This document shows, piece after piece, positions 22,755 to 50,059 of a stretch of 64,000 bases of DNA. This stretch comes from Tsuneonella litorea (lineage in GTDB: Bacteria > Pseudomonadota > Alphaproteobacteria > Sphingomonadales > Sphingomonadaceae), in contig NZ_JAOAMV010000004.1 in assembly GCF_025154015.1 (NCBI RefSeq), forward strand, positions 310,001-374,000, in the 5' to 3' direction. Both the position numbers and the translations under genes were made by a program. The notes under the pieces were generated by a model. It ran no database searches. It worked only from the letters and a program-made list of their open reading frames with translations, and was not told the DNA's origin. How positions within the stretch are numbered: the first letter of the stretch is position 1; the number at the start of each line of letters is the position of its first letter.

Positions 22755-22755
<1 letters not shown>

Positions 22756-32267: not shown

Positions 32268-33212
32268 CTAGAAGTTGACCTGATCGCCGCCTTTGAGCTG
32301 TAGCATCTCGCGCGCGTCTGAGGGGGTTGCTACTTCGAGACCGAGACTCTCGATAACTTTTCGGATATGGGCGACCTGCTCGGCATTGCTCGTCGCCAAC
32401 CGACCCGGCCCGCTCCACAGGCTGTCCTCAAGCCCGACGCGAACATTCCCGCCCAACAAGAGGGATTGCGCCGCCACGTTCATCTGCATTCGCCCGGCAC
32501 CCAGAACCGACCATACGAACCGATCTCCGAACAGCCGATCTGCGGTTCGTTTCATGTGGGCGATATCCTCGCTATGCGCGCCGATGCCGCCAAGCAGACC
32601 GAACACCGACTGGATGAACACCGGCGGTTCGATCAGCTGACGATCGAGGAAATGTGCAAGGTTGTAGAGATGCGAGATATCATAGCATTCGCATTCGAAT
32701 CGCGTACCGTTGTCGCGACACGTATTCAGGATACATTCGATATCGGCGAACGTGTTGCGGAAGATGTAATCCCTGCTGTTTTCGAGATAGGGCCGCTCCC
32801 AATCGTGCCGAAATTCGGTGAACCGCGACAACATCGGATAGAGACCGAAATTCATCGTCCCCATGTTCAGTGAAGCCACTTCCGGAGCATACTTCGCTGC
32901 GGGCCGCAGACGTTCCTCAAGCGTCAGGGTCACCGCGCCGCCGCTGGTGATATTAAGCACCGCGTCGCTCGCTTGTTTGATTCGGTGAAGGAATTGGCCG
33001 TAGATATCCGGATCCTGCGTCGGCCTACCGTCTTGCGGGTTGCGCGCGTGGAGATGGATCACTGCAGCGCCGCTCTCGGCTGCGGCAATCGCTTCGCTGG
33101 CGATTTCGTCTGGCGTGATCGGCAGGTGCGGTGACATCGACGGCGTGTGGATGCTTCCGGTGACCGCACACGTTATTATCACTTTGCGCGACTTGCGCTT
33201 CTCCTCAACCAT
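32268..33212 (-). CDS. Beta-keto acid cleavage enzyme (BKACE, DUF849 family)
   Basis: This about 314-residue TIM-barrel enzyme is of the family that condenses a beta-keto acid with acetyl-CoA and cleaves it to acetoacetate and a new acyl-CoA. It starts KVIITCAVTGSIHTPSMSPHLPITPDEIA and has the zinc/substrate motif AVIHLHARNPQDGRPTQDP and the late NVRVGLEDSLW with the expected Glu. The specificity of BKACEs varies widely and cannot be read by eye. ATG 33212 is 8-9 bases after GGATGGG; an in-frame ATG at 33260 would add 16 residues. The next genes downstream are an SDR and an acetoacetate CoA transferase, which strongly suggests a shared pathway. Confidence 0.9.
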   Translation of the reverse strand: MVEEKRKSRKVIITCAVTGSIHTPSMSPHLPITPDEIASEAIAAAESGAAVIHLHARNPQDGRPTQDPDIYGQFLHRIKQASDAVLNITSGGAVTLTLEERLRPAAKYAPEVASLNMGTMNFGLYPMLSRFTEFRHDWERPYLENSRDYIFRNTFADIECILNTCRDNGTRFECECYDISHLYNLAHFLDRQLIEPPVFIQSVFGLLGGIGAHSEDIAHMKRTADRLFGDRFVWSVLGAGRMQMNVAAQSLLLGGNVRVGLEDSLWSGPGRLATSNAEQVAHIRKVIESLGLEVATPSDAREMLQLKGGDQVNF

Positions 33213-33381
33213 TGCATTCCCATCCAGATTTCGTTCCAGGCTGCCCCATTCGGCGAACAACGGGCAAGAACGCTGACATGACCCGGAAACTAGATAGAAC
33301 CAGGCGGAATATCTTGGCGAGCAGCGACATCGAGATTGGCGGAGACGGACTACTTGGAACGTTCAGCCCTTCACCGACTTC

Positions 33382-33651
33382 CTAGGGTCAGGACCCATTA
33401 CCCGCGCTATCGAGGCTTGAGTCAAAATGGCTCGGTGCAAGGAAGGAAAGTGCAGGAATATGTCGATATTTCAAGACTTCCTGACGCAGCAACGGGCCAT
33501 TTTGGCCAAATCCCTGCGGGACGGCGGAATGGCATCCATCTCGAACGGCAATCCCCTTGGAAAGGCAACCAGCCTTCCCGGCGGGAATTGCCGCCCGATC
33601 TGTTTGCCATTCTGCCGCCTCGACGGTGCGGGTAATGGGTCCTGACCCTAG
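33382..33651. mobile_element. 270-bp MITE with 21-bp perfect terminal repeats and two internal hairpins
   Basis: A perfect 21-bp inverted repeat (GGGTCAGGACCCATTACCC and two more bases) occupies 33385-33405 and 33628-33648, with CTAG at each end as target duplication, as in the IS5 superfamily. Inside are two foldback regions: CAAAATGGC (33423) with GCCATTTTG (33496), and CGGCGGAATGGC (33522) with GCCATTCTGCCG (33605). No transposase is present. Its right end coincides with the left end of the next insertion sequence, which used the same TA target. Confidence 0.8.
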
Positions 33652-33720
33652 GCCGTGTTGACAAAAGGGATTCCCAAACGACCCAGGTTCTGATTCAAGG
33701 CTGCTCTTTGGGGAGCAGTC

Positions 33721-34152: not shown

Positions 34153-34387
34153 CCGGTGGTGAGGCTTCCGATTATGCAGCTGTCGACGACCTGATGTCCC
34201 TGCCGCTGCCCAAACCGAAGGCACTACTGGCCGACAAGGGCTATGACGGCGACAAATTCCGCGAGAGTCTGCTCATGCGCGGCATCCTGCCCATCATTCC
34301 GCCCCGATCGAACCGCAAGGCACCAGCGCATCCTGACTATCGGCGATACAAGGATCGCAACCGTATCGAGCGCATGTTCGGCAAGCT

Positions 34388-35690
34388 GGAGACCCGCAAA
34401 AACCGGGTCTTTCACGGTTTGGTAGCCTGACGGCAGATGATGCCAATGCTGCCGGACGCTGTTGGGCGCGCCTTCGGTCCCTTTTCGAGGGCATTCCGGT
34501 CGATTTCACCCGTCTTGCCCGGGTTGCGGGCAGAATCAGCCCATGCTTTCCCGGCGATCGTGGAAGATCAGCCTGTTGAAGTTGTAGGCCAGGTTGCACA
34601 GGGTGAGTTTCGCTTCGGCGCGGGCAAGGCCGATGGTTCGGATGAACAGCCCGAACCTGTTCTTCTGATGGGCAAAGACGTGTTCGACATGGGCGCGGAT
34701 CGAGGACTTGGCAGCGTTGGCCCGCGCCGTTGACTTCGGCATGGGCTTGCCCATGGGCTTGCGCCGATGGATGCGCGACGTGAGCATCCGGTCCGACAGC
34801 CATTTCTCGTTACGCTTTGAGCGATAGGCGCTGTCTGCCCAGACCTCGGAACCGGTGTTGTCCGTACTGACGACCTGGCGCAGAAGGCGCCCGTCGGCGG
34901 CCGACGCCGAAGTCACCGCCATCTCCCGAATGAAGCCGAAGCGCCGGTCGATGCTTATGTGGGATTTGTAGCCGAAGACTGGCAGGGCAATCATGGGCAA
35001 TGGCGTGCCGTCCGCGCGATAGCGGACTTTGCCACCAATCTTGAGCGTCCAGCGCGCATCAATATCCTTCTGCGCGGCCTTGTTCGGCTCGTCCGGCCAG
35101 ATTTCCTTCGCGCTCATACCGGACTTGATCGCCTCGCGTTCACCTTCAGTATTCCGCTGCTTGGGCGCAGGCACCAGCGAGGCATCGACAATCTGCCCCG
35201 ACATCGGGATGTAGCCCTTCTTCTGGAGTTGCCAGTCGAAGGCCTTCATCACCCGCTTGAGCGTTCCGGTCTCGGTCAGGCGGTTGCGAAAATGCCGGAT
35301 CGTGTTCTCGTCAGGCGTGCGGTCCCCGAGTGACAGTCCAAGGAAACGCAGCCAACTCAGGCGGTCCCGGATCATGAACTCCATTCGCGCGTCGGACAGA
35401 TTGTGTTGCGCCTGCAGGATCAGAGCCTTGAACATCATGACCGGATCGAACGGCGGACGGCCACCCTTGGCGCCATCGCCGTAGCCCAGACCCTCGACCA
35501 GCCAGACCCGGAAGTACTCGAAGTCCACGGTCTGCTGCAAAACCTCGAGCGGATCACCCTCCTTGCTCAATGCTTCAAGATGGTCGCTCAAACTGAACAG
35601 GGACTTCGGATCCACCACGGCTCTCCATGATCGCTCTCGATCAATGAATCACCATCATCGCAAAAACGCTACAGGTTTTTGCGGGTCTCC
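34388..35690 (-). mobile_element. IS5-type insertion sequence (1303 bp) nested in the IS427-type element
   Basis: Terminal inverted repeats GGAGACCCGCAAAAACC are perfect at both ends, and the flanking 4-bp duplication is AGCT (34384-34387 and 35691-35694). It contains one transposase gene on the minus strand. It appears complete and may be active. Confidence 0.88.
34536..35618 (-). CDS. IS5-family transposase
   Basis: The 360-residue DDE transposase opens MVDPKSLFSLSDHLEALSKEG and has [26 protein letters not shown] typical of IS5 proteins. Catalytic residues are visible: Asp in GQIVDASLVPAPKQR, Asp in EVWADSAYRSKRN and Glu in RAHVEHVFAHQKNRFGLFIR. The gene appears intact. It is related to, but not identical with, the copy at 50850 and the fragment at 24343. 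It serves only transposition and has no link to the catabolic genes around it. Confidence 0.93.
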   Translation of the reverse strand: MVDPKSLFSLSDHLEALSKEGDPLEVLQQTVDFEYFRVWLVEGLGYGDGAKGGRPPFDPVMMFKALILQAQHNLSDARMEFMIRDRLSWLRFLGLSLGDRTPDENTIRHFRNRLTETGTLKRVMKAFDWQLQKKGYIPMSGQIVDASLVPAPKQRNTEGEREAIKSGMSAKEIWPDEPNKAAQKDIDARWTLKIGGKVRYRADGTPLPMIALPVFGYKSHISIDRRFGFIREMAVTSASAADGRLLRQVVSTDNTGSEVWADSAYRSKRNEKWLSDRMLTSRIHRRKPMGKPMPKSTARANAAKSSIRAHVEHVFAHQKNRFGLFIRTIGLARAEAKLTLCNLAYNFNRLIFHDRRESMG

Positions 35691-36143: not shown

Positions 36144-38540
36144 TCAGAACTCGAACCCAATTTCTACACCGTAGAACCGAGGTGGAGCATAATTAATCTG
36201 ACCAGTATTATACAAACTTGCGAAGTTAAACTTCTGCAATGCCTTTGTGTTATTGGTTAGGTTTTTAACATAGGCCGAAACATGCCACCCGTCATTGTCT
36301 TTGTACATGATATTGTAATCGACATTGATGTAGGCGGGCAGTTTCGTTGCGGGATCGTTTAACACATCGACGTAGCGCGAAGACGTATAGCTGCCCGAAG
36401 CTTGGTTACTGAGCGTACCGTCGAACATCTCCATTTCGTATCGGAGCGAGCCGCTCGCCTCGAAATGCGGTGCCGATCCGAGTTCACGATCTTCAGTGAC
36501 CGCAACCCCGCCGCCCACGTTTGTCACATCCTTGACCTTCGTGTCGATGTAGCCCGCACCGAACGTCAAATCCAGACCATCGGCGAGATTCGCCCAAGTG
36601 TCTATTTCCACGCCATAGACAACCGCATCTTTATTGATGACTTGAACACCCAAGGTGCCGTTCACCACTGTAAATGCGGTCGCCTGGTAGTTCTTGTAGT
36701 CATAATAGAAAATGCCAGGGTTTATCCGGATCCGGCCATCGGCGGTCTGCCATTTTACACCACCTTCGAAAGCATTGTTTACTTCATTCTTGAAGGGGAT
36801 AGCGTCGAGATCGAATGCCGAGAAATTTACAAGTCCGTTATTGAAGCCGCCGGATTTCACGCCGTGCTTAAATGATGCATAGGCCAGCGTGTCATCGGTT
36901 AGTTCATAATCGATGCCCAACTGATAATTCACGAAAGTGGTTTTGAACGTATCCGAAAAGTCGACGACTGGATCTCCAACCGGGTCGGCAGGGCCGACGA
37001 TATAGTTGGCGATCAGGTTCTCCATCCCCTCGGCATCAAGAACAAGGATACCAAATGTATTTCCATCAATGGTATATTGACCAGTATCGGGGTGGTCGTG
37101 GACATAAAGCCCTTCAACCTGCTGGAAATCGCGCTCTTCATGGTTCCAGCGCAGACCGCCGGAAAGAGTCAATCGGTCGGTAACGTCGAAGGAAATGTTC
37201 CCGAAGAAAGAATAGGATTCCAGCTTCGAATTGTTGGGGGTGTACTGCACGAGTCCGCCCGGGGTGTCACCGGCTTCGATCGATGGGTGCCCCTGAAATG
37301 TGCCAGTGCCGCTGATGATGGGGAGGGTCCACTGGTTGGCGTAATCCTGATTAAGATAGAATCCGCCGAAGGTAAGTCTTGCACGATCCAGATCGACGGC
37401 CGCGCGCAGTTCCTGGGTCCAGTATTTCTGGTCGTTTGTCTGATAAGCAGCACAAATCGTTCGCGGCGTTCCGTCGCACTCCTCCAGAGTATACTTGAAC
37501 TGCTTCAGATACCCAGTAACCGATGTCAAAGTGACAGCGTCGTTGACGTCATAATTGATCGTCAAGAGGTGGTTCTGAACCTTGTTTCGGAAGTCATTAA
37601 TGCCATCAGAGATGACAGACGTACTGGTCTGACCGGACTCTGTAGGGTTATAACCGAAACCGTCAGTTCCGTCGGGCTTTACGATAGTATAGCCTTCAAG
37701 TTGCTGCATCGGCTGTGAGCTATCGCCGCCATTCCGGCCTTTTGCGAGCCCGTATTGGTATTTGTAGGTGATATAAAGATCGTCCGTAACGTCCCAACGC
37801 ACGATCGCGCGCGCAGCGAGGAAGTTGCCTTCGTGTGTGTCGTTGGCACCTTCCCCCGGACCGTCAAAGAGGTTCTTTGTAGTCGCACCGTTGGTCTCAC
37901 GTGTCGCGGAGAACCGCACCGCCAGCCGATCGGATATGACCGGAATGTTCAATACCGCGGAGATTCCCGTACTATCGTGATTTCCAACGGAAACTTTCGC
38001 ACTACCCTCAAGATAGTTCGTGGGCTGGTTAGTATGCATGACAACGGCGCCGGCTGTGGAATTGCGACCAAAAAGCGTACCCTGAGGCCCGCGCAGGATT
38101 TCTGCTGTCGCCACATCATCGGTCTGGAAGTCGACCGCCGAGCTCGATAAAATGTAGAAGTCATCAATGTAAACGGTAGTTGGAGACTCGCTGCCTTCAT
38201 TGAAATCAGCCTGCCCGATCCCGCGGATATAGAAAAGGCTGGCATTGCCTTTCGAGCCCCATTGCTTCTTGAAGTCGACATTCGGCGTAAGGCCGGCGAG
38301 ATCCCCAGCCGACTCGACCCGCAAATTCTCAAGTTGCTCGCCGTTGAAAGCCATGACTGAGGCGCCAACATCCTGCAGCGATTCTGCTCGCCTGTTGGCT
38401 GTAACGATAATATCATTGCCGGATTGAACGTTTGGCTGCTCGCTTGCCTGCGACGGGACCGAAGCGGTTTGCGCGTAAAGTGCGCTGGGCGCAACGGCAG
38501 TCGACATCAGTGTTATGATAAATGGTCGCAAAACCTTCAT
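36144..38540 (-). CDS. TonB-dependent outer-membrane receptor
   Basis: The 798-residue outer-membrane transporter has a signal peptide ending around SALYAQ, a TonB-box region, and a plug domain starting GNDIIVTANRRAESLQDVGASVMAFNGEQLENLRV with LFYIRGIGQADFNEGSE and EILRGPQGTLFGRNSTAG. A long beta-barrel follows, ending in an aromatic residue (YGVEIGFEF). In sphingomonads such receptors import many carbon compounds besides iron chelates. Here, set between bioB and the BKACE gene, it may bring in the substrate of the pathway. Its DNA has visibly lower G+C than the neighbouring enzyme genes. ATG 38540 is chosen over 38555 because the signal peptide begins there. Confidence 0.92.
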   Translation of the reverse strand: MKVLRPFIITLMSTAVAPSALYAQTASVPSQASEQPNVQSGNDIIVTANRRAESLQDVGASVMAFNGEQLENLRVESAGDLAGLTPNVDFKKQWGSKGNASLFYIRGIGQADFNEGSESPTTVYIDDFYILSSSAVDFQTDDVATAEILRGPQGTLFGRNSTAGAVVMHTNQPTNYLEGSAKVSVGNHDSTGISAVLNIPVISDRLAVRFSATRETNGATTKNLFDGPGEGANDTHEGNFLAARAIVRWDVTDDLYITYKYQYGLAKGRNGGDSSQPMQQLEGYTIVKPDGTDGFGYNPTESGQTSTSVISDGINDFRNKVQNHLLTINYDVNDAVTLTSVTGYLKQFKYTLEECDGTPRTICAAYQTNDQKYWTQELRAAVDLDRARLTFGGFYLNQDYANQWTLPIISGTGTFQGHPSIEAGDTPGGLVQYTPNNSKLESYSFFGNISFDVTDRLTLSGGLRWNHEERDFQQVEGLYVHDHPDTGQYTIDGNTFGILVLDAEGMENLIANYIVGPADPVGDPVVDFSDTFKTTFVNYQLGIDYELTDDTLAYASFKHGVKSGGFNNGLVNFSAFDLDAIPFKNEVNNAFEGGVKWQTADGRIRINPGIFYYDYKNYQATAFTVVNGTLGVQVINKDAVVYGVEIDTWANLADGLDLTFGAGYIDTKVKDVTNVGGGVAVTEDRELGSAPHFEASGSLRYEMEMFDGTLSNQASGSYTSSRYVDVLNDPATKLPAYINVDYNIMYKDNDGWHVSAYVKNLTNNTKALQKFNFASLYNTGQINYAPPRFYGVEIGFEF

Positions 38541-38755
38541 GGCTATCCCCTCCACCGTATGTATCGACTTTCTATGGTCGATCAGTTCGGATATAGGTTG
38601 GACCGGTTGCCGTTCTTATTCTTGGTCACCAGTGACAGCCATATTGGCGCAGCGCGCCAAACCACCCATAAATGACAATCTGACACTGCGTCAGGATCAA
38701 CCCATGAAGGAGAAATTGCGATATTCCCGGTGTTGAACAGCACCCTGACATGCAC

Positions 38756-39703
38756 TTAGGTGTTTAGTCCCAGCATGTGATGGTTAGGTTTGACGATAAA
38801 GATGTCAGGCTTTGATTTCCAGAGTTCTTCGACAGCTTCGTAAGGCGTTCGGAACTTGAGCGCCTTGAGCTGCTTGGCGAAGTTGTAGGCGGTCAGCCAG
38901 TCACGGACGTGCCGTCGCAGTTCGTTGATCGAGGCGTAATGGAAGGATTTGACGGTCGCCTCCTTGATGGTTCGCACCATGCGTTCGGCCTGCCCGTTGG
39001 TCCAGGGATGATAGGGCTTGGTTAGCCGGTGCTCGATACCGTTTTCCTGACAGACGCAGCCGAAGATGTGCGGGAAGGTCAGGCCGGTGCCCCGCTCGAA
39101 CTGGGCGAACTGCACGCCGTTGTCGGTAAGGATGGTGTGGATCTTGTAGGGCACCGTCCTGATCAATGCTTTCAGGAAGCCGGCGGCGACCAGCTTCGTT
39201 GCTCTGCGATAGATGCGTGCGAAGACCAGCTTGGATGTGCGGTCCACGGCGACATAGAGGTAGGCCTTGCCATCCTCATAGCGCAGTTCGGCGATATCGA
39301 TGTGGAAGTAACCGATCTCGTAGGTCTTGAACTTCTTCGGCTTCTCGCGATCAGCTTTGGGCAACTGGCTGATCCCATGCCGTTGCAGGCAGCGATGCAG
39401 CGACGAGCGGCTCAGATGCGGGATCACGTCCTTGAGCGCGATGTAAACATCGTCGAGTGGCAGCCGGGCCTGCACCCGCAGCGCCACGATCGCGGCTTCC
39501 TCCATTGGCGAGAGCACAGTGCTGCGCCGCTCCCTCGGCCCCATCGGCATGTCTTCCACCGATTGCCGTTTGCGCCACTTCAGGACCGTTTTCTCGTTGA
39601 TCCCGTACTTCTTGGCGAGGTGCGCGACCGAAGCTTGCGATCGCTGTAGCTCTGCTCGAATGGCGTGCGTGGTCTTGGCGCTGCCATGGAGAACCTGGCC
39701 CAT
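38756..39703 (-). CDS. IS481-family transposase
   Basis: The 315-residue protein has an N-terminal helix-turn-helix (SQASVAHLAKKYGINEKTVLKWRKR) and an integrase core with Asp in YFHIDIAELRYEDGKAYLYVAVDRTSK, Asp in TILTDNGVQFAQ and Glu in TNGQAERMVRTIKEA, i.e. a full DDE set. Its stop codon overlaps the terminal repeat, and the last residues (NHHMLGLNT) are encoded by the repeat itself. It appears intact and may be active. It has no metabolic role. Confidence 0.93.
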   Translation of the reverse strand: MGQVLHGSAKTTHAIRAELQRSQASVAHLAKKYGINEKTVLKWRKRQSVEDMPMGPRERRSTVLSPMEEAAIVALRVQARLPLDDVYIALKDVIPHLSRSSLHRCLQRHGISQLPKADREKPKKFKTYEIGYFHIDIAELRYEDGKAYLYVAVDRTSKLVFARIYRRATKLVAAGFLKALIRTVPYKIHTILTDNGVQFAQFERGTGLTFPHIFGCVCQENGIEHRLTKPYHPWTNGQAERMVRTIKEATVKSFHYASINELRRHVRDWLTAYNFAKQLKALKFRTPYEAVEELWKSKPDIFIVKPNHHMLGLNT

Positions 39704-39838: not shown

Positions 39839-40915
39839 TTAAAGGACATTTTCCCTTGGCTTGTTTCGCCCACCGACGACATCGTCACTGCAGGGGCCCG
39901 TTCCGCTGGACAAACCAAGTTTACGCAACATCTCAGCGTCAGTGTCTTCGCCGGCGTTGGGTGCGGTCAGCAGCTTGTCGCCGGTGAAGATTGAATTCGC
40001 GCCTGCGAAGAAACACAGCGCCTGCGTCGCCTCGCTCATGCTTTCGCGACCTGCAGAGAGGCGAACCATACTCATCGGCATGGTGATGCGCGCGACCGCC
40101 ACGGTGCGAACGAATTCGATGTCGTCGATCTTGGCGAGCGGCGTGTCGGCGAGCATGTCACCCAGCACCGTGCCTTTGACGGGCACCAGCGCGTTGACCG
40201 GCACGCTTTCGGGATGGCGTTCGAGCGTTGCCAACGTGTGGACGAAGCCCACGCGGTCGGCGCGTGTCTCACCCATGCCGACAATCCCGCCGCTGCACAC
40301 ATTGATCCCGGCATCGCGCACGTTCTGCAGCGTGTCGAGCCGGTCCTCGTAATTGCGGGTCGAGATCACGCGTTCGTAATATTCCGGCCCGGTATCGACA
40401 TTGTGGTTGTAATAATCGAGGCCGGCCTCTTTCAGCATCTGCGCCTGTTTGGGCGTCAGCATGCCCAGCGTCATGCAGGTTTCCATTCCCATCGCACGCA
40501 CGCCTTCGACGATCTGAATGATCGCGGGCATGTCGCGGTCTTTGGGATTGCGCCATGCCGCGCCCATACAGAAGCGCTGCGAGCCTGCATCCTTGGCCTG
40601 CGCGGCGGATTGCAGGACTTGCTGCACCTCCATCAGCTTGGTCGCCTCGACGCCAGAGTCCGCCTTCACCGATTGCGAGCAATAGCCGCAATCCTCGGGG
40701 CATCCGCCGGTCTTGATTGAAAGAAGCGTGCTCAGTTGAATCCGGGACGGTTCGTGACATTGGCGATGAACGCTGGCCGCCCGGAACAACAGTTCCGGAA
40801 AGGGAAGATCGAACAGAAACGCGATTTCCTCGCGGGTCCAATCGCTTCGCACGTCGGTGGGAGCGGTCGGCCCGTCACCGTCTTCTTGTACATGCTCTCG
40901 AAGTTGCGTAGACAC
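39839..40915 (-). CDS. bioB: Biotin synthase
   Basis: The 358-residue radical SAM enzyme inserts sulfur into dethiobiotin. The SAM-cluster motif is [11 protein letters not shown], and [30 protein letters not shown] and [12 protein letters not shown] carry the remaining conserved residues. The C-terminus includes [20 protein letters not shown]. The start appears to be GTG 40915 with AAAGGA upstream; no ATG exists in frame nearby. Unlike the other bio genes it lies 10 kb away, directly after surE and the carboxylase genes on the same strand, so it may be expressed with the enzyme that needs the cofactor. Confidence 0.95.
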
Positions 40916-41804: not shown

Positions 41805-41837
41805 AGTTTGCAGAAGGTAGCCCCAGTGGCTTCAGCA

Positions 41838-43301
41838 TCAGCCTTCCTGCCGGATGAGTTCGAGTTGCATCATCCCGATGGTCGCCTGAAGCGATGGCGT
41901 ACGAGCCAGACGCATCAGTTTCTGCACTTGGTCGAGCTCGGGCGATGACATGAGCGGGAAGTTCTTCTTCACCGGTCCCGCCGCCCGCATTTTCTCCAGA
42001 TCGGCCTCGGGCACTAGCGCACGCAGGATCAATTCATCGTCGTTGTCCGTCCCGTGGCGTTTGCGCAGTTCCTCGATCGACGGATTTTCGGGCGGGTTTG
42101 CGAGCACGTCCTTGGCCCGCGGCGAAGACATGATCCTGTCCAGGACGTTTGGCTCGATCGGTGCGACCATCTCCCCATAAAACCCAGCGGCGTACGCGAT
42201 CACCTCGTCGGTTACGATCTCATAGCGCTTGCCCGAAACGATGTTCAGCACCGCCTGAATGCCTACGATCTGACTGAACGGCGTTGCCATACCCGGATAG
42301 CCCAGCTCGCGGCGGACCACGGCTGTCTCGCGCAGCACATCGGGCAATCGGTCCTGCATGTCGTGTTGCGCCAGGTTGGCCTTGAAAGTGCCTACCATGC
42401 CCCCCGGAATCTGGTGCTGAATGGCGAGCACGTCATATTCATTGTTCTGGTTAATAAGATATCCGGCGGCGCGCCCAACCTTTTCGAAATGATCGGCGAC
42501 CGGCGGAAGGAGCGATAAATCGAGGTCGTGGGTGTGCCCCAGCATTTCGAGATTGTGCGCAAACATCTGGACCGAAGGTACCGCCGGTCCGTTGGCCAGC
42601 GGCCTGGTGGAGGTGTGCAGGACCGTGACGCCGAGATCCACGGCATCGAGATAGGCCTTGCCCGATTGCCCAAGAATATTGTTCGCATGCAGTTCGATAG
42701 GCTTGCCGCGCGCCTCGGCGATCAGCGCAGGCACCAGTGTGCTCAACCGCTCCTTCTCCAGAACGCCGGCCGTATCATAGATCAGGATGGAATCGATGTC
42801 CGGCGATGCAGCCAGCTTCTTGACCTTGTCGGCATAATATTCATCGGTGTGAACCGGCGACAGGGTGAACATGAGCGCACCCGCACAGGTCGCGCCGAAC
42901 TCCTTTGAGACCTTGGCCAGTCGCAACATCTTGTCGATATTGAATAGCACGTCGTAGACCCAGAAACTGCGGCAGCCGTGTACCGCCAGCTGACGCATCC
43001 AGGCATCCATCAAGGCGTCGGGCGTTACACCAAAGCTCACTGCGGCGTTCGAGCGCATCCCCGCTCGTTTCGGGGTGCGCGGCATGGCCTGAACCAGCAG
43101 GTCCATTCCGTCCCAGGGATTCTCCCGGCAGCTGCGAACGAGAACCTCGAACAAGGACGAAGCGGTAAGATCAATCGTGGAATAGCCGGTCCGGTCGATG
43201 ATCGGCGCGACGGGGAGCGCCATCCCCGCGGTCATGCGCATACCCCAAAGCGCTTGCTGGCCGTCCCGGATGGTGGTGTCTAGAATGTCGATGTGCGCCA
43301 T
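41838..43301 (-). CDS. Divergent biotin-dependent carboxyltransferase (pyruvate carboxylase/oxaloacetate decarboxylase-like)
   Basis: This 487-residue protein has an HMGL-like barrel (1-300) and the PycB/OadA-type second domain (GYPGMATPFSQIVGIQAVLN). It starts HIDILDTTIRDGQQALWGMRM, keeping the metal-binding Asp. The carbamylated metal-ligand lysine of pyruvate carboxylases (IKDMAGLL) is replaced by Tyr (ILIYDTAGVL), and the HTHD metal motif reads HANN (IELHANNILG). It should therefore not carboxylate pyruvate in the usual way. No biotinyl domain is attached; the carrier is the separate upstream protein. The start ATG 43301 overlaps the biotin carboxylase stop (TAATG). Confidence 0.85.
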   Translation of the reverse strand: MAHIDILDTTIRDGQQALWGMRMTAGMALPVAPIIDRTGYSTIDLTASSLFEVLVRSCRENPWDGMDLLVQAMPRTPKRAGMRSNAAVSFGVTPDALMDAWMRQLAVHGCRSFWVYDVLFNIDKMLRLAKVSKEFGATCAGALMFTLSPVHTDEYYADKVKKLAASPDIDSILIYDTAGVLEKERLSTLVPALIAEARGKPIELHANNILGQSGKAYLDAVDLGVTVLHTSTRPLANGPAVPSVQMFAHNLEMLGHTHDLDLSLLPPVADHFEKVGRAAGYLINQNNEYDVLAIQHQIPGGMVGTFKANLAQHDMQDRLPDVLRETAVVRRELGYPGMATPFSQIVGIQAVLNIVSGKRYEIVTDEVIAYAAGFYGEMVAPIEPNVLDRIMSSPRAKDVLANPPENPSIEELRKRHGTDNDDELILRALVPEADLEKMRAAGPVKKNFPLMSSPELDQVQKLMRLARTPSLQATIGMMQLELIRQEG

Positions 43302-44674
43302 TAGGGGGCTCCTTTGTCTGAAAGAAATTCGGGGAGCAAAACGCGCTCTGCCCAACGTGTATCGATCCGGTTTTCGATGAAATCAGGGTGGCGGGAAATG
43401 AACCGCAACAGGTCGATGTTGGTCGCAATACCTTCGATCACGAATGAATCGAGCGCATCGCGAAGGCGTGCGACGGCATCGTCACGATCGCGGCCCGTCA
43501 CGATAAGCTTTGCAATCATACTGTCGTAGTAGGGTGGGACCATCACGCCCGACGCCATCGCCGTATCGACCCGAATGCCCGTGCCTGAAGGTGCCGACCA
43601 GTTGGTGATGCGGCCTGGTGACGGCCGGAAGTTATCCAGCGGATTTTCCGCGATGATCCGCACCTCAATGGAATGGCCGGCAGGAATGATGTCATCCTGC
43701 GCTAGTTCGCTGGCTTCGCCGCAGGCAACGTCGAGCTGGCGCTGGATCAGATCGATCCCGCAGATTTGCTCGGACACCGGGTGTTCGACTTGGATCCGGG
43801 CATTGACCTCCATGAAGAAGAACTGCTCGGTTTCCTCGTCGTAGAGGAACTCAACTGTTCCCGCATTGCGATAGCTTATCGGCGAGAGCAGATCGATCGC
43901 CGCTTGCGAAACGCGGTTGCGCAATGCAGGCGAGAGGATCGCGGCAGGTGCTTCCTCCACCATTTTCTGGTAACGCCGCTGCAGCGAACAGTCGCGCTCG
44001 GCGAAATGCACGATATTTCCTTTGCCGTCACCGACGACCTGCACCTCCACATGGCGCGCACGTTCGACAAAGCGCTCTAGATAGAGTGTCCCGTCGCCGA
44101 AGGCTTCTTTGGCTTCATGCGAGGCGGCATCGAACGAGCTGCGCAGCTCTTCGGGCGAGCGTGCCACGACCATGCCGCGTCCACCGCCACCTGCCGAAGC
44201 CTTGGTGATGACCGGGAACCCGATTCCATCGGCAATGCGCAGCGCATCATCGACGGTATCGACCTTCTCGCTTCCTGAAACCATGGGGACACCGGCGGAC
44301 CTGGCAAGGGCGCGGGCGGCCAGTTTGTCGCCGACCAGCCGGATCGTCTCGGCCTTGGGCCCGACGAAATTCAGGCCCGCATTCTCACACTTTTCGGCAA
44401 ATGCCGCACGTTCCGACAGGAAGCCATAACCCGGATGGACAGCGTCGCATCCCGTCGACAGGGCCGCATGGATAAGCATGTCGCCATTGAGATAGGAATC
44501 GCGGGCAGCCGCTGGGCCGATAACGACCGCGCGGTCGGCTTCCGTTGCGGCCATGCTGTCACGATCCGCTGCCGACACTGCCAGCACCGTTTCGATACCT
44601 TTCGCCTTCGCCGCACGCACAATACGCACGGCGATTTCGCCACGATTGGCGATAAGGAGACGCTTGATAGGCAT
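43301..44674 (-). CDS. Biotin carboxylase subunit of a separate acyl/keto carboxylase
   Basis: The 457-residue protein is a stand-alone biotin carboxylase: MPIKRLLIANRGEIAVRIVRAAKAKG, the ATP-grasp Gly loop TKASAGGGGRGMV, ERDCSLQRRYQKMVEEAPAA and NARIQVEHPVSEQ. It makes carboxybiotin on the carrier protein encoded immediately upstream (overlap of one base). A housekeeping AccC should exist elsewhere, so this copy serves the local enzyme. By length it is AccC-like, not PycA with fused domains. Gene order carrier, carboxylase, transferase matches an operon for a three-protein carboxylase. Confidence 0.93.
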   Translation of the reverse strand: MPIKRLLIANRGEIAVRIVRAAKAKGIETVLAVSAADRDSMAATEADRAVVIGPAAARDSYLNGDMLIHAALSTGCDAVHPGYGFLSERAAFAEKCENAGLNFVGPKAETIRLVGDKLAARALARSAGVPMVSGSEKVDTVDDALRIADGIGFPVITKASAGGGGRGMVVARSPEELRSSFDAASHEAKEAFGDGTLYLERFVERARHVEVQVVGDGKGNIVHFAERDCSLQRRYQKMVEEAPAAILSPALRNRVSQAAIDLLSPISYRNAGTVEFLYDEETEQFFFMEVNARIQVEHPVSEQICGIDLIQRQLDVACGEASELAQDDIIPAGHSIEVRIIAENPLDNFRPSPGRITNWSAPSGTGIRVDTAMASGVMVPPYYDSMIAKLIVTGRDRDDAVARLRDALDSFVIEGIATNIDLLRFISRHPDFIENRIDTRWAERVLLPEFLSDKGAP

Positions 44675-45180
44675 CAGGCGTCCGGCTCGATAACAAACAG
44701 CGGTCGGTCGAATTCGACAAGCTCGGCATCGCTGACGAGTATTTCGCGAATGGTGCCTGCCACGCCAGCCTTCACCGGCGTGAACAGCTTCATCACCTCG
44801 ATCAGGCACACATCGGAATCGGCATCCACTTTCTGCCCGATTTCCACGTATGGCGCCGCACCGGGCTTGGGCGAACGATAAAACGTTCCCAGGTTCGGGG
44901 CCTTGAGCACCGACATTCCATCGGGGACCTGATAGTCGGCCGATCCGGTTGCATCGGCAGTCGCGCTCGCCGCCGGGACCGCCACCGGCGCAGGGGTGGC
45001 CACCGATGCAGCCGGGGTATCGACGACTGTACGCTCGCCACCGTTCCAGGCGCGACGGGCCGCGGGATCCTTGTTGAGGTGAAGCTGGAAATCGTCGAGC
45101 GTGATGTGAAGCTCGTCCCAATCGCCTGCATCGAACAGCTCGATCAGCGCTTGTACATCTTCGGGAGTGACATTGGTCAT
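44674..45180 (-). CDS. Biotin carboxyl carrier protein
   Basis: The 168-residue carrier has a helical N-terminus (MTNVTPEDVQALIELFDAGDWDELHI), an Ala/Pro-rich flexible linker (about 55-90) and a C-terminal biotinyl domain with the acceptor lysine in CLIEVMKLFTPVKAG. The VMKLF context is nearer to AccB-type carriers than to pyruvate carboxylase. The tail is FDRPLFVIEPDA. I chose ATG 45180; a longer frame to 45555 runs over the end of the dikinase gene and is not similar to anything. It is coupled to the biotin carboxylase. Confidence 0.92.
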   Translation of the reverse strand: MTNVTPEDVQALIELFDAGDWDELHITLDDFQLHLNKDPAARRAWNGGERTVVDTPAASVATPAPVAVPAASATADATGSADYQVPDGMSVLKAPNLGTFYRSPKPGAAPYVEIGQKVDADSDVCLIEVMKLFTPVKAGVAGTIREILVSDAELVEFDRPLFVIEPDA

Positions 45181-45289
45181 CTGCTCAATTCCTCGAATAC
45201 AGAGAGTTTGGATTGGCGGCGTGGTTGCTTGCCCGCAGCACGCTCGCCGAGCGACGTGCAGGTCCGCAGGTGATCGGGACGCAGCACTC

Positions 45290-47053
45290 TCACGGCACGG
45301 GTTCGACGTTCGCCTGAACCGCTGCCAGGAGCGATGGCAGGCGAGGGTCCGCGACGATGAATTCCAGACCAGCGTCGATGGCTGCGCGCACGCCTTCGTC
45401 GGTCGCGATCGCGCCTCCGGCTGCGCCCTTCGCAGTCTGGTTGCCTGCAAGGATTTCTGGAAGGTTTTCCGACTCTTCGGCACCTTCAATCGCCGCGAGA
45501 TCGAGGGCATCAAGCCCCTTCGCTCCATCGGCCGAAATGATGCGGATTGGCGCAAGCTGTTCCGCCCATTCGGTCAACTGCGCCAGCATCCCGTCAGACA
45601 CTTCGTCGGGGACAACAACCTCCAGCGCTCCGGCCCAGATCTGCCCTGTCTGTCCATCGACGGTCACGGTCTGGCCGTTCAGGGCGGAAAGCCTGCCTTG
45701 CCCGCAACCGACAACGCAGGGTTTGCCAAGCGCCCGGCTGACCACGGCGGCGTGCGATGTCGATCCGCCTTCCTCGGTTATTACCGCAGTGGCCGCAATC
45801 ATTCCGTGAACATCATGCGGGCTTGTCGTCGGACGGGCGAGCACGACGGCAATCCCCTCATTGCCAAGCCGTTCGGCCTCATCGGAGCCGGATACCACCA
45901 TGCCTATGCCGACACCGGGGCAAGCCCCCTCTCCCTTTGCCAGTTGAGCAGCCGCAACTCGTGCTGCTTCGGGAATGACAGGCGACATCAGGATACGGAT
46001 CCGGTCCGAAGGAATGCGGCAAATGGCCGTGCGCCGGTCGATCAGGCCTTCGTTCGCCATCTCGACCGCCGTTCGCACGGCAGCCTGGGGCGCGAGCTTG
46101 GCCGATCGCGCCTGCAAGAGGTAAAGAGTGCCACGCTCCACCGTGAACTCGATATCCTGTACGTCCCGTTCGGCCCGCTCCAGCGTCTTCGAGGCGGACA
46201 TCAGGTCGTTGAATGCCTCGGGAACAATCTCGGCCATCGTGGCAAGGGGTTTCGGCGTGAATTCACCCGATACGACATCTTCGCCCTGCGCCTGGCCCAG
46301 GTACTCGCCGAAGGGCTGGTCTTCGCCGGTCGAAGGGTTGCGGCTGAACAGCACACCGGTGCCCGATCGCTCATCCAGATTTCCGAACACCATCGCCTGA
46401 ACAGTCACCGCGGTGCCTAGGTCGTGGGGAATCTTCTGGTGCTCGCGATAGCGTCGGGCGCGGCGCGCATTCCAAGATTCGAAAACCGCTGTCACCGCCC
46501 CCAGCAACTGTTCACGCGGGTCATCGGGCAGCGTCTTGCCGGTCGCGCTGTGGATCATATCGCGCCACACCTGTGGGTCAGACGCACTGTCGAAACCCTT
46601 GGCATCGGCCTTGAGAACAACGTTACCGTATAGTTGCGCAAAGCGACGGTGGGTATCCTGTGCGAACGCCGCGTCTCCGCTTTCGGCTGCCAAGGCCGTC
46701 TGGGTCTGATCGTTCATGCCGACATTGAGGATGGTATCCATCATACCGGGCATCGAGATGGCTGCTCCCGAACGGACCGACACGAGCAGGGGAGCAGATG
46801 CTCCGCCAAAAACGCGCCCGGTGGACTCTTCGAGCCAGGCGATGGCACGTTCGAGTTCCTCGACAAGTCCGTCGGGGAATTCACCCGTTGCCAGAAACGC
46901 GGCGTGGGCCTCGGTCGTAACCACGAAGGCAGGCGGCACCCGCAGACCGAGCGCCATCAGGCGTGCGATCGAGTGCGCCTTGCCGCCAATGAGCGACTTT
47001 CCCGGCAAGTTCGTCCCATCGAGACGCATGATCCATTCCATGGAACCAGCCAT
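45290..47053 (-). CDS. PPDK-like ATP-dependent phosphotransferase lacking the PEP/pyruvate barrel
   Basis: The 587-residue protein begins as a pyruvate phosphate dikinase: GKSLIGGKAHSIARLMALGLRVPPAFVVTTEA, then SVRSGAAISMPGMMDTILNVG (ATP site) and GVLFSRNPSTGEDQPFGEYL. It continues to the swivelling domain with the phosphohistidine in EEGGSTSHAAVVSRALGKPCVVGCG (about residue 430). PPDK and PEP synthase then have a C-terminal TIM barrel of about 350 residues that binds PEP/pyruvate; here only about 120 unrelated residues follow. So it can make phosphohistidine from ATP but must pass it to another acceptor. ATG 47053 is chosen, with GAGG upstream; GTG 47065 is possible. Confidence 0.9.
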   Translation of the reverse strand: MAGSMEWIMRLDGTNLPGKSLIGGKAHSIARLMALGLRVPPAFVVTTEAHAAFLATGEFPDGLVEELERAIAWLEESTGRVFGGASAPLLVSVRSGAAISMPGMMDTILNVGMNDQTQTALAAESGDAAFAQDTHRRFAQLYGNVVLKADAKGFDSASDPQVWRDMIHSATGKTLPDDPREQLLGAVTAVFESWNARRARRYREHQKIPHDLGTAVTVQAMVFGNLDERSGTGVLFSRNPSTGEDQPFGEYLGQAQGEDVVSGEFTPKPLATMAEIVPEAFNDLMSASKTLERAERDVQDIEFTVERGTLYLLQARSAKLAPQAAVRTAVEMANEGLIDRRTAICRIPSDRIRILMSPVIPEAARVAAAQLAKGEGACPGVGIGMVVSGSDEAERLGNEGIAVVLARPTTSPHDVHGMIAATAVITEEGGSTSHAAVVSRALGKPCVVGCGQGRLSALNGQTVTVDGQTGQIWAGALEVVVPDEVSDGMLAQLTEWAEQLAPIRIISADGAKGLDALDLAAIEGAEESENLPEILAGNQTAKGAAGGAIATDEGVRAAIDAGLEFIVADPRLPSLLAAVQANVEPVP

Positions 47054-47061
47054 CACCGACC

Positions 47062-47667
47062 TCACTCTTCGCGCTCTTTGCCGAGCATGCAGAGCAAATC
47101 CTCATGCAGTTCGAACCACAGCGTATGGTAACTTTCGATCTTGGCGTCGCTCACCCATTCGATCGCACCGTCCTCTGCCCGTTCGAGCGCCGTAAGCAGC
47201 TTTTCCCGATAGATCGCCATTCTCGGAAGAACCGACGCCATCGCCGCAAGAATGCGCTCGGCGCTTTCATGCAGGGCGCCCAATCGATCGATGATCTTGT
47301 TGTCGTAGTCCGCGTCGGTATGATCGTTACGAACAGTGCTCCCGGCGATATCTCGCACCTGCCATGCCGTAATCAGGGACTTCAGGTCGACATTCAGTTC
47401 CTCGAAACGATCGTAGGCCGCAACAAAGGCATCATTTTTCCTGACACTGTCGTAAAATCGGGAATAATTGCATTGCATTATCAACCGACCGGCCGGACCG
47501 AGCGTCGCCTTGCCGTCGGCCCGCATTACCAGCCCTCGCTCTTCCGCGCGGTCGATCGAGTTTTCGACCTCGGCCTGGGCGATGCCGATTATCTCGGATA
47601 TATTCACGGCGTCGGCGTATTTCTTGATGCCGATGCCATGCAGCACAAGATGATCTGTGTAGAGCAT
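47062..47667 (-). CDS. Helical protein of unknown function in the dikinase-carboxylase operon
   Basis: I do not recognise this 201-residue protein. Residues about 1-60 (HLVLHGIGIKKYADAVNISE and on through AEVENSIDRAEERGLVMRADG) look like a winged helix with a basic wing. The remainder is mostly helical, including DYDNKIIDRLGALHESAERILAAMASVLPRM and an acidic C-terminus. It has no signal peptide or transmembrane segment. It starts 17 bp after the 527-residue gene and touches the dikinase gene, so it is probably a structural or regulatory subunit of that enzyme rather than a free transcription factor. Confidence 0.75.
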   Translation of the reverse strand: MLYTDHLVLHGIGIKKYADAVNISEIIGIAQAEVENSIDRAEERGLVMRADGKATLGPAGRLIMQCNYSRFYDSVRKNDAFVAAYDRFEELNVDLKSLITAWQVRDIAGSTVRNDHTDADYDNKIIDRLGALHESAERILAAMASVLPRMAIYREKLLTALERAEDGAIEWVSDAKIESYHTLWFELHEDLLCMLGKEREE

Positions 47668-47684
47668 GACTATTCTTCTTCGCG

Positions 47685-49268
47685 TTATCGGGAACGGTGC
47701 TGGAGATTGGAGAGCGCTTCGACATCGTCTCGATCGAGTCCCGCTCCACGATCCTTGAGATTTCGCGAGTCCGACTGCTCAATCCTGTAAAGCTCGTCGG
47801 CAAGCGGGCTGTCGTAATTGTACTTGACCCATGCATCGTCCAGATAACGATAGCGTTCGGTGCAAAGCTTTGGCGTGAACTGACGGACCCTCTCGTTCAG
47901 CTCATCTTGGGTCATCGTTCCCTGCGTTGTGCGATACCGATCGACCTTCGCAGCGAGATAGGTAACCCCCCGTCCGAGTTCGTCTCCTACCGTCGGCGCA
48001 TAGTCGCCATCGGAAAGGATGGAATAGGGGATCGGGGAATAGTTGCGCTTGGGCAGGTTGGAATGCGGCATCATTTCATATGCGCTGAACTGCTGGCTGG
48101 AAAGCGACAGCGGGACGAACAGCGCACCAAGCAATTCGTTGCCATACTCGTCGTTCATGAAGGGGCGGAACCGATCCGCGCGCTCATCGATTTCCATCCA
48201 GTCGCTTGCCTCGTAACATCCGGCAACGTGGGCGAAATCCTTGATGATGGAATAATAGGTCAGCGCGCCGGCATCGATCAGTTGCTCACGCGAATATCCG
48301 GCCAGCGATTCCCATAGCTTCTTGGTCGCATCCTTGAAAATCTCGGTATACCTGTCGAAAGTTGCCGTGAGCTCCTCGGCACTTCCCATGCCTATCGGGA
48401 CTTGCGTTTCGGTAAGTTCGTCGGATGTATAAAGTCCCACTGCGCAGATATTGGCGGCCCTGTATTCCGGCTTTGAGTCAAAGCTGCCCCAATCGTCGAC
48501 AATGTTGAAATGTGTGTTTCTGACTGCGGTGGGCACGGTAAGGCGCGAAAAGGGAACATCGCCCGCCACTCCGTCCAGCCACGGCAGATCCCCTTCGGCA
48601 AGGTCGAAGAAGTCACGGACCAGCAGTTCGCGAGCCTGACCGAGATTGTAGGGGCCGTGATTGGTCATGCAGACCCGGCTCTCGCAAGCGACCAGAACGG
48701 CGTATTGCGAAACTGCCGCCAGGAACCTGTCGGTGGCGCCGTGCAACGCATCCCCTTCCTCGCAGGGGAACATGTCGGCGTGATAGACCTGAATGCGACG
48801 CTCTGGCAGAACCTGAGAGCGGTGCCCGGCCTCCTTGTTCGTGATATGGCCGGAATCCCGGCGCCAGGCGAGCTGGTAGCGACGCCAAAAGTCAAGAACG
48901 AAGATCACGTCCTCGACAGCGTCCTGTGGGCGGACCAGGCCCATGTCGATCATCATCTCCCGGCCGAGCAGATAGAAGTTGATCATGCACCAATTGGTGC
49001 CCATCGACTGGATCTTGGAGTTGGAATTGCGAATGCGATCGGCCAGATCCTCTGGTGACATCACCGCCGAAATCTTGCGCAGCAGCGGAGGGTACCGGTA
49101 AAAGGCATTCAAGTACCCGAGCATGATATAAGCTGAGACAGGAAAGAATTTCGATTCCTGCACCGTCCGCGTCACGCCAAGAAAATAAGTTTCCTCGCCA
49201 GCGGTTCGGATCAAATTGTTGGCCTCTAGTAACCTGGCATATGTGATTTCAGAACCTTTCACGTCCAT
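47685..49268 (-). CDS. 527-residue orphan protein, candidate substrate-binding subunit of the dikinase-like system
   Basis: The frame is long and has normal codon use, but I see no known domain. It is soluble (no signal peptide or helix long enough to span a membrane) and rich in aromatic and acidic residues. It contains conserved-looking blocks such as VQESKFFPVSAYIMLGYLNAFYRYPPL, MTNHGPYNLGQARELLVRDFFDLAEGDLPWLDG and YEMMPHSNLPKRNYSPIPYS. Lying between the phosphohistidine proteins, it may supply the acceptor site that PPDK normally carries in its C-terminal barrel. ATG 49268 has GGAG directly before it, an unusually short spacing. Confidence 0.8.
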   Translation of the reverse strand: MDVKGSEITYARLLEANNLIRTAGEETYFLGVTRTVQESKFFPVSAYIMLGYLNAFYRYPPLLRKISAVMSPEDLADRIRNSNSKIQSMGTNWCMINFYLLGREMMIDMGLVRPQDAVEDVIFVLDFWRRYQLAWRRDSGHITNKEAGHRSQVLPERRIQVYHADMFPCEEGDALHGATDRFLAAVSQYAVLVACESRVCMTNHGPYNLGQARELLVRDFFDLAEGDLPWLDGVAGDVPFSRLTVPTAVRNTHFNIVDDWGSFDSKPEYRAANICAVGLYTSDELTETQVPIGMGSAEELTATFDRYTEIFKDATKKLWESLAGYSREQLIDAGALTYYSIIKDFAHVAGCYEASDWMEIDERADRFRPFMNDEYGNELLGALFVPLSLSSQQFSAYEMMPHSNLPKRNYSPIPYSILSDGDYAPTVGDELGRGVTYLAAKVDRYRTTQGTMTQDELNERVRQFTPKLCTERYRYLDDAWVKYNYDSPLADELYRIEQSDSRNLKDRGAGLDRDDVEALSNLQHRSR

Positions 49269-49309
49269 CTCCGGAAATTCATGTTATCTTTTCAAGGACC
49301 TTGGGAGTA

Positions 49310-50059
49310 TCAATGGCGGGAATGCAGCCACACACGAACTGAATGATCGTCTTGTGTCTGGTAGTCCCCCATGGCCTTGGCCCGCCCAGACACCTCAATC
49401 TCGACCCTGTCGCCATTCCGGATACCGCTGATGCATGCGTTCATCAGGCAGGGAATGCCGAATTCGCGGGTCAGGATGCCGAGATGCGACTTGACCGTTC
49501 CGCCCGCGCAGATCACCCCGTGGAACTGCTCGAGGATGGGAGCAGTAAGAGTGCCGCCACTGTCGTCGATAATCGCAATCGTTTCGGGAGGAACGCCGTT
49601 GGTCAGCCCCTCCATCACATCCTTTACCGAACGGTAGTATCGCGCCGTGCCAACTGCATTGGCGGGAAACCTGACGACATTGTCGCCCTGACCCCGCCTT
49701 TGCCTGCCAGCTTCGTCCGCGGGTTCCACAACGGCGCGGGGATGCTCGAAAGAGAATTCGTCTGCGTCCCCATCGGCTCCGCCGATTTGCTGATAGGCAT
49801 TCGGCCTTTCTTCTGCCGAGATCGTCGCGGAAGCCACGTACCGGTATCCCGCATCGACGGCCCGCTTTTCAAGCTCTACGACATCCTTGGCGCTAATGAG
49901 ATCGTAGCTCGTGCCGAAGACGAAGTTCGACCATGTATCACCGGTTTCATCCAATCTGGTCCGGATCAGATCCCGGATGCCGCCGTGAAAGATCTCGACG
50001 ACGTTCGGGGGCGTCGCCCTGTGGTCATACTTGTTGGTGTCTGAATGAATTTTCGCCAT
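49310..50059 (-). CDS. Stand-alone swivelling phosphohistidine domain protein (PEP-utilising mobile domain)
   Basis: In this 249-residue protein the C-terminal 120 residues form a PEP-utilising enzyme mobile domain: GVICAGGTVKSHLGILTREFGIPCLMNACISG has the central His aligned with the phosphohistidine of PPDK (TSHAAVVARGMG), although preceded by KS instead of TS. The N-terminal half (SDTNKYDHRATPPNVVEIFHGGIRDLI) is unlike any domain I know. It is the first gene of the minus-strand operon. With the His domain of the PPDK-like protein it gives the system two phosphocarrier domains. Confidence 0.82.
   Translation of the reverse strand: MAKIHSDTNKYDHRATPPNVVEIFHGGIRDLIRTRLDETGDTWSNFVFGTSYDLISAKDVVELEKRAVDAGYRYVASATISAEERPNAYQQIGGADGDADEFSFEHPRAVVEPADEAGRQRRGQGDNVVRFPANAVGTARYYRSVKDVMEGLTNGVPPETIAIIDDSGGTLTAPILEQFHGVICAGGTVKSHLGILTREFGIPCLMNACISGIRNGDRVEIEVSGRAKAMGDYQTQDDHSVRVWLHSRH

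Follow-up and report, generated by a model that had tools for sequence, protein, structure and literature searches.

A 64,000-nucleotide stretch of the genome of the sphingomonad Tsuneonella litorea (the window; contig NZ_JAOAMV010000004.1, positions 310,001 to 374,000, from a genome of 3.03 Mb in 32 contigs) carries, at 41838-50059 (the core), an operon that joins a dikinase-like kinase part (45290-50059) to a three-subunit biotin carboxylase part (41838-45180), and this core is a rare yet widely scattered module, not a chance neighbourhood. It is likely to encode a general route in which a ketone is phosphorylated, carboxylated with biotin and dephosphorylated. For the fuller version, in which the phosphorylated form would be the enol phosphate of an aliphatic ketone, belief and doubt are evenly balanced; the proposal of a new class of ketone kinase, i.e. 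a four-protein phosphohistidine relay working with a metal-free carboxyltransferase on enol phosphates of unactivated aliphatic ketones, is tentative, with doubt slightly ahead. If it is correct, the substrate subunit would have an unrecognised fold, and the system would be a counterpart of acetone carboxylase that uses biotin and is not homologous to it.

Between 50059 and 29202, all identifiable genes lie on the minus strand with open reading frames, as an initial annotation made from the sequence had held, and the gene assignments in that annotation were borne out: Pfam showed the domains of a dikinase-like system (45290-50059) without a barrel for phosphoenolpyruvate (PEP), Pfam and NCBIfam identified the carrier, biotin carboxylase and carboxyltransferase (41838-45180), and a BKACE (32268), an SDR dehydrogenase (31398) and a ScoAB pair (30018-31414) stand downstream. 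SurE (40980-41804) and BioB (39839-40915), which the annotation had passed over, are also part of the island. In their order from 50059, the genes of the core and the two that follow it are:

49310..50059, minus strand: swivel (phosphohistidine) subunit, 249 residues (PF00391; His192 in GGTVKSH)
47685..49268, minus strand: 527-residue protein, proposed substrate-binding subunit of the dikinase (no family match)
47062..47667, minus strand: 201-residue putative helper protein, with a winged-helix-like N-terminus followed by helices in the model
45290..47065, minus strand: ATP-grasp plus swivel protein of the pyruvate, phosphate dikinase (PPDK) type, 591 residues, with His438 (NF004531, 676 bits, cut-off 456)
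44674..45180, minus strand: biotin carboxyl carrier protein (BCCP), with EVMKLF (PF00364; TIGR00531, 117 bits, cut-off 115)
43301..44677, minus strand: biotin carboxylase (PF00289, PF02786, PF02785), its start inferred as the first Met ahead of the domain
41838..43301, minus strand: PYC/OADA-type carboxyltransferase, with Tyr193 and Asn225 at metal-centre positions (PF02436, NF006761)
40980..41804, minus strand: SurE phosphatase (PF01975, 186 bits)
39839..40915, minus strand: biotin synthase BioB (TIGR00433, 388 bits)

The 527-residue protein was found in six of 296 genomes of the order, its own included (one of them, G016, has a distant form of 25 % identity), in none of the six same-genus genomes among those 296, and, within a phylum-wide sample of 398 genomes, in its own genome only. 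In a collection of species genomes, 173 stretches matched a pattern and 123 of these encode a relative of the 527-residue protein, the best 80 of which were examined (these loci, and those from other records, are numbered L below). Their titles name alpha-, beta- and gammaproteobacteria as well as two actinobacteria; four records of metagenome-assembled genomes (L030, L037, L040, L054) bear the label Klebsiella pneumoniae, which is probably wrong, and that name was not used. Plasmids of Rhodococcus (two) and Novosphingobium (one) also carry relatives of about 50 % identity. Neighbours were counted in the 46 loci flanked upstream by 1.5 kb or more and downstream by 9 kb or more, with 34 short-flank loci excluded from the 80 and a gene scored as present at 40 % or greater tblastn identity; gene calls in the relatives came from a codon-usage caller and are rough. 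The swivel gene, adjoining the 527-residue gene, is present in 45 of the 46, the 201-residue protein in 43, the PPDK-type protein in 35, the carboxyltransferase in 39 and the biotin carboxylase in 35, and a phosphatase of either kind in 35 (SurE in 26, a PF13350-type phosphatase, named from one representative, in 13). The figure for BCCP, 22 of 46 by tblastn, is probably an underestimate because the protein is short, gene calls placing a BCCP cluster at 45 of the 80 loci. With a carboxyltransferase near 39 of 46 loci, the claim that the dikinase and the biotin carboxylase belong together holds. The further expectation that relatives of the 527-residue protein would keep company with both biotin carboxylase and BKACE genes was mostly borne out on the biotin carboxylase side (39 of 46), whereas a BKACE is near only four of the 46.

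The commonest gene order is swivel, 527-residue protein, CoA ligase, 201-residue protein, PPDK-type protein, BCCP, biotin carboxylase, carboxyltransferase and thiolase; many sphingomonad loci have a rearranged order with a different ligase and thiolase. By contig prefix, paired loci occur in single assemblies (L036/L070, L042/L073, L062/L083, L069/L087, L024/L074 and L078/L093), and the second sets at L070 and L073 have their own carboxyltransferase and no PPDK-type or biotin carboxylase gene in the stretch, as if substrate cassettes used common generic subunits. If the proposal is right, it would give a function to clusters on Rhodococcus plasmids that are labelled 'hypothetical protein', 'PEP-utilizing enzyme' and 'pyruvate, phosphate dikinase'.

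PPDK acts on the enol oxygen of pyruvate. The 45290 protein, whose best match is PPDK, shares its ATP-grasp and swivel domains but differs from it in having no PEP/pyruvate barrel, only PPDK_N and PEP-utilizers being shown by Pfam; a separate PPDK relative is encoded elsewhere in the host (a 945-codon frame on contig C26). His192 of the swivel subunit is kept in all 76 aligned sequences, and His438 of the 45290 protein in all 41 rows with letters there (49 rows aligned). The 527-residue family had no match among Pfam, NCBIfam or PDB sequences at the limits used, and the model of the window's protein (pLDDT 90.6) had no PDB fold at E<=0.001 in Foldseek (best 0.37). There was also no Foldseek match to the RPH rifampin-binding domain, a weak negative in that RPH was assumed to be in the library. 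The family is tied to phosphotransfer by a 577-residue protein of Rhodococcus pyridinivorans in which a swivel domain is fused to a 527-like domain (29 % identical to the window's protein and 31 % to a 398-residue neighbour). Judged by frame lengths and hits, the 527-residue protein is itself fused to the 201-residue protein in L039, L043, L070 and L073; the model of the latter (pLDDT 95.5) gave weak MarR-like structure matches (best E 7.3e-3).

From these parts, a relay can be proposed in which the PPDK-type protein would bind ATP and place a phosphate on its own His438, whence the small swivel protein (49310) would take it up on His192 and hand it to a substrate on the 527-residue protein (47685), with the 201-residue protein perhaps coupling the kinase parts. 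Most likely, the acceptor would be an aliphatic methyl ketone, phosphorylated at its enol oxygen. CO2 would be added at the methyl carbon by the three-part biotin carboxylase, through a carboxyltransferase predicted to lack the metal centre that would polarise a free ketone, and SurE would strip the phosphate to give a beta-keto acid; the presence of a SurE phosphatase suggests that the phosphate survives carboxylation. In the host, BKACE with acetyl-CoA would then yield an acyl-CoA and acetoacetate, and ScoAB would activate the acetoacetate. Such a system would lead from a methyl ketone to an acyl-CoA independently of O2 and would be distinct from both Baeyer-Villiger oxidation and the acetone carboxylase family, and its key kinase subunit would be one that matches no profile family searched and for which no solved fold was found.

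The active site of the carboxyltransferase bears on the position of the phosphate. The metal of pyruvate carboxylase, oxaloacetate decarboxylase and transcarboxylase 5S is bound by an Asp, a carbamylated Lys and two His, and three aligned PDB relatives of the window's enzyme keep the Lys and the HxH. Among 52 carboxyltransferases from 527-residue loci, in contrast, the Lys is replaced by Tyr in 49 (Glu in two, a gap in one) and the second His by Asn in 48 (His in two, gaps in two), with Asp31 present in all 52. All seven A-type enzymes (L133-L139), of which four are from Acv-like clusters and to which the window's enzyme is 33-37 % identical, keep the Lys and both His; a carboxyltransferase tree carried a long-branch warning, and identities alone were used. 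An enol-phosphate substrate would need no metal to form the enolate, which would fit the loss of the metal centre, and the enol phosphate that had been postulated at the outset is, on this sequence evidence, the best-fitting reading of such a carboxyltransferase. If the proposal holds, the enzyme would allow a direct test of how a biotin carboxyltransferase can function when two residues that form the metal centre in pyruvate carboxylase are missing.

For the product of carboxylation, the evidence comes from what follows the core. Known routes from a beta-keto acid to an acyl-CoA include one by ligase plus thiolase and one by BKACE. A thiolase or a BKACE accompanies 36 of the 39 carboxyltransferase loci (of 46), and the two occur together in none of the 80, so that BKACE seems to replace the ligase and thiolase. 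The four BKACE loci are those of Comamonadaceae ALPHA2B, Acidovorax MR-S7, Actinomycetospora NBRC 106375 and Nocardioides Soil797; ligase and thiolase are absent from these as well as from the window's core. From this exchange, a beta-keto acid is the very probable product, in agreement with the initial annotation. In a tree of the 527-residue protein (54 of the 80 loci plus the window, without L021; a quick LG+G4 analysis with SH-aLRT only), three BKACE loci, the window and two loci cut by contig ends form a supported set of six that stands beside two ligase-thiolase loci, and one label change suffices when loci of unknown state are left out. The minus strand of the window continues after BioB as follows, where the Nocardioides locus is L027 and ScoA and ScoB were named from reading and from 52-60 % blastp identity to the Nocardioides pair, not from a family search:

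38756..39703, minus strand: IS3-like transposase, between the core and BKACE blocks (read from translation)
36144..38555, minus strand: TonB-dependent receptor (read from translation)
34536..35618, minus strand: IS5-like transposase (read from translation)
32268..33260, minus strand: BKACE (PF05853, 355 bits, cut-off 24.8; NF053538, 542 bits, cut-off 430)
31398..32261, minus strand: SDR dehydrogenase (PF13561, PF00106)
30677..31414, minus strand: ScoA-like CoA transferase subunit (read from translation; 52-54 % to the L027 copy)
30018..30677, minus strand: ScoB-like CoA transferase subunit (read from translation; 60 % to the L027 copy)
29202..29996, minus strand: crotonase-family protein (PF00378, 170 bits; 46 % to the L027 copy)

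The window's BKACE belongs to family PF05853 and contains HLHA, GAGR and GLED, which we take to be the BKACE metal-site motifs. It is of another lineage than the four operon-linked BKACEs, which are 67-87 % identical among themselves and three of which (L021, L026, L027) score 494-511 bits against NF053538, the 3,5-dioxohexanoate model. Given the two insertion sequence (IS)-like genes in between and the BKACE identities detailed below, the window's BKACE block was probably recruited apart from the core. Beside the core, Nocardioides Soil797 has a BKACE, ScoAB, an SDR and a crotonase that are 40-60 % identical to the window's enzymes, and the recurrence of the same enzyme types argues for shared function over common descent of the block, although chance could also account for it.

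As to the substrate, the loss of the metal centre, joined by weaker hints from beta-oxidation neighbours, BKACE relatives and the host's few ring-cleavage genes, favours an aliphatic methyl ketone in enol-phosphate form. Beta-oxidation-type neighbours comprise acyl-CoA dehydrogenase-like (nine of 80), crotonase-like (12 of 80) and hydroxyacyl-CoA dehydrogenase-like (five of 80) genes, one representative of each having been checked. In the host, LigB gave no match and PF00775 a single one (82 bits); among other carriers, G291 has neither ring-cleavage family and G276 has PF00775 only. The window's BKACE matches BKACE15 of Paracoccus denitrificans (8rio, 8rip, 9hnf) with 451 bits over 307 residues, and the accessible part of the report on that enzyme gives it short neutral beta-keto acid substrates, i.e. 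3-oxopentanoate, 3-oxohexanoate, 3,5-dioxohexanoate and 5-hydroxy-3-oxohexanoate, and states its physiological role to be unknown (PMC11961710). By chemistry, these would be the carboxylation products of 2-butanone, 2-pentanone, acetylacetone and 4-hydroxy-2-pentanone. The substrate suggested earlier, 4-methyl-2-pentanone, is of the same size class and is a possible candidate that the evidence does not single out; the link once drawn from it to an ivd-mccBA cluster is likewise possible only: the ivd-mccBA-like cluster (17924-22755) is on the opposite strand and lies 6.4 kb beyond the point where the set ends. None of its NCBIfam matches is isovaleryl-specific. Acetone was rejected as the window's substrate on the reasoning that BKACE acting on acetoacetate and acetyl-CoA regenerates both. 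A literature search for phytone and other isoprenoid ketones as a lead was without result.

The initial annotation had presented the pathway as a candidate new one, and in its logic it is not new. In the accessible part of Dexter et al. 2022, HpeHI, HpeCBA, HpeD, HpeE and HpeF of Rhodococcus rhodochrous GD02 act on phenolic acetophenones, the acvABCDEF genes of Sphingobium SYK-6 are homologous to them (citing Higuchi et al.), and a dikinase, a three-part biotin carboxylase, a phosphatase and CoA-dependent cleavage are encoded together, the acetyl group being carboxylated and the phosphate carried on the phenol (PMC9618137). The three-subunit biotin carboxylase and a cluster phosphatase are also present in the window. 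However, the window's substrate subunit has no detectable kinship to HpeH-like proteins, there are two phosphohistidine domains, and the kinase is of the ATP-grasp PPDK type rather than the PEP-synthase/RPH type. The phosphatase is SurE or of the PF13350 type versus a NagD-like HpeD, cleavage is by BKACE or ligase-thiolase versus HpeE/F, and the carboxyltransferase active site is altered. Four Acv-like clusters in the host's order (L133, L134, L135, L137) encode a 612-616-residue swivel protein, a 345-348-residue protein, BCCP and a carboxyltransferase, with a biotin carboxylase called in two of the four, and thus fit the published description; the 345-residue protein of L135 has 9goj, PEP synthases and 5hv6/5fbs as best matches. 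Their four HpeH-like sequences, assigned by length, swivel motif and gene order, stand in for HpeH. In hhalign, 55 sequences of the 527-residue family against these four gave a probability of 0.5 %, and the HpeH-like 612-residue profile matched, in the host genome, only the swivel stretch of 45290. The candidate that the kinase is simply HpeHI was rejected on these two results.

Phenylphosphate synthase PpsAB and 4-cresol kinase CreHI, described in the accessible part of their source as HpeH/HpeI homologues, are likewise multi-component small-molecule dikinases with a phosphohistidine (PMC12167813), but the 527-residue family does not align with the HpeH-like profile. Acetone and acetophenone carboxylases phosphorylate a ketone ahead of carboxylation, phosphoenolacetone having been proposed for acetone carboxylase in the part of the article that is accessible (PMC5543143), yet they are biotin-free and of other protein families. 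Phosphorylation-dependent biotin carboxylation of ketones is known logic; what may be new in kind is the kinase together with the carboxyltransferase active site. A literature search brought up papers related to Hpe/Acv and papers on acetone and acetophenone carboxylases, but among the titles and abstract openings listed none describes this operon, which is weak evidence of novelty as subscription papers were mostly outside its scope.

Several observations weigh against the enol-phosphate proposal. Seven of the 46 loci have no carboxyltransferase or biotin carboxylase nearby, 11 have no PPDK-type gene and 11 have neither phosphatase; moreover, the route could do without a phosphatase if the phosphate left during carboxylation of the enol phosphate. 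Two Rhodococcus operons keep the HxH, with Glu replacing the Lys, and the same metal-less type of carboxyltransferase occurs in two genomes without a 527-residue homologue (L131, L132), such that metal-centre loss is not strictly tied to the 527-residue kinase. In these (L131:8857-10848 and L132:8786-10810), BCCP and a carboxyltransferase 65-67 % identical to the window's lie within acyl-CoA/thiolase clusters, that of L131 including a ChsH2-like OB fold. Beta-oxidation-type neighbours are a minority of loci and so only a hint, and two of five carriers (G248, G213) have both PF00775 and LigB. Lastly, the window's BKACE is 54-55 % identical to the four operon-linked BKACEs and 68-75 % identical to five in unrelated contexts (five of 163 plasmid records), and two IS-like genes and a receptor gene separate it from the core. 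The last two facts are what would be expected if the core works as proposed and the BKACE-SDR-ScoAB-crotonase block is an unrelated IS-borne neighbour, with other host enzymes handling the beta-keto acid. We regard this as somewhat improbable, for the window's core lacks the ligase and thiolase of its relatives, as do the four BKACE loci, and the Nocardioides operon has enzymes of these types next to it.

Two other explanations concern what is phosphorylated. Were the system a parallel of Hpe/Acv, the kinase would phosphorylate a phenol (such as 4-hydroxyacetophenone or raspberry ketone), the side-chain ketone would be carboxylated and SurE would remove the phenol phosphate. The functions do come in the same order as in hpeHI-CBA-D, as far as the accessible text of that study describes it (PMC9618137), a phosphatase near 35 of 46 loci fits a phosphate that outlasts carboxylation, and the PF00775 and LigB matches of the two carriers just named are strong. 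Nevertheless, this explanation is unlikely: the HpeH-like profile shows no kinship to the 527-residue family, metal-centre residues lost here are kept in all of the A-type enzymes, the host has no LigB and a single PF00775 match and G291 has neither family, and BKACE15-type substrates are short and aliphatic. The alternative that the alcohol of a hydroxy-ketone (e.g. tertiary or secondary) is phosphorylated, with the phosphate serving as a handle or a later leaving group, draws on the distant 527-like proteins found, in Methylibium PM1, next to a cluster with a cobalamin-dependent mutase and, in Rhodococcus sp. 008, in a set that has no carboxylase, on the seven of 46 loci with a kinase and no nearby carboxylase, on aminoglycoside-phosphotransferase-like neighbours in some operons, and on 5-hydroxy-3-oxohexanoate being taken by BKACE15, according to the accessible part of that report (PMC11961710). 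It is more doubtful still, in that it leaves the carboxyltransferase metal-centre loss unexplained and the distant forms, only 23-31 % identical, may act differently.

Those distant forms are part of several sets. In the Rhodococcus sp. 008 plasmid (L104:11917-16705), 527-like, swivel, 201-like, DUF7065 and PPDK-type proteins are encoded together, with no carboxylase within the stretch shown and with P450 and dehydrogenase genes nearby. The Methylibium petroleiphilum PM1 plasmid (L102:11890-14106) has a distant 527-like protein, a 153-residue protein and a swivel protein upstream of a cluster of cobalamin-binding mutase, AMP-binding and thiamine-enzyme genes. Two Rhodococcus plasmids have, upstream of the full operon, a second and shorter dikinase set (L100:9314-12885 and L101:11908-15109) that consists of a swivel protein, an approximately 398-residue 527-like protein and a swivel/527-like fusion, similarity having been computed for L100. 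Additionally, a 388-residue 527-like protein (25 %) at L019:7843-10323 is beside a swivel-like match and, by reading, a PEP-synthase-barrel-like protein, on a contig that also carries a protein reading like a hydantoinase subunit.

The absence of acetone carboxylase genes, as first reported, holds for the island as far as its 12 Pfam-scanned proteins go. Three Hydantoinase_B matches lie on other contigs of the host; two of them score well under the cut-off for acetophenone carboxylase (204 of 1500 bits), and the third is on C28. The first two, at L151 (G000:C11:197939-204125), surround a CapA/ApcC-like protein, and all three proteins there are far below equivalog cut-offs. Biotin supply is represented by BioB near the operon in the window, L044, L077 and L103, the host having a second bioB copy elsewhere, and by bioF and bioA downstream of the island at 24619-29156, with three unassigned genes between. 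When 10 further genomes of the genus were searched, the bioF adjoining the island found no match at E<=1e-100, which implies that the biotin operon is not conserved in the genus.

In 2 kb steps, G+C content is 0.52-0.63 at 28-54 kb; from 54 kb onward it is 0.68-0.71, and in the part before 28 kb it is 0.60-0.71. Upstream of the core, two further features were read from translation, of which the regulator may be assigned to the system only by position:

50850-51926, plus strand: IS5-like element, second copy
52428..53519, plus strand: AraC-like regulator beyond the second IS5-like element

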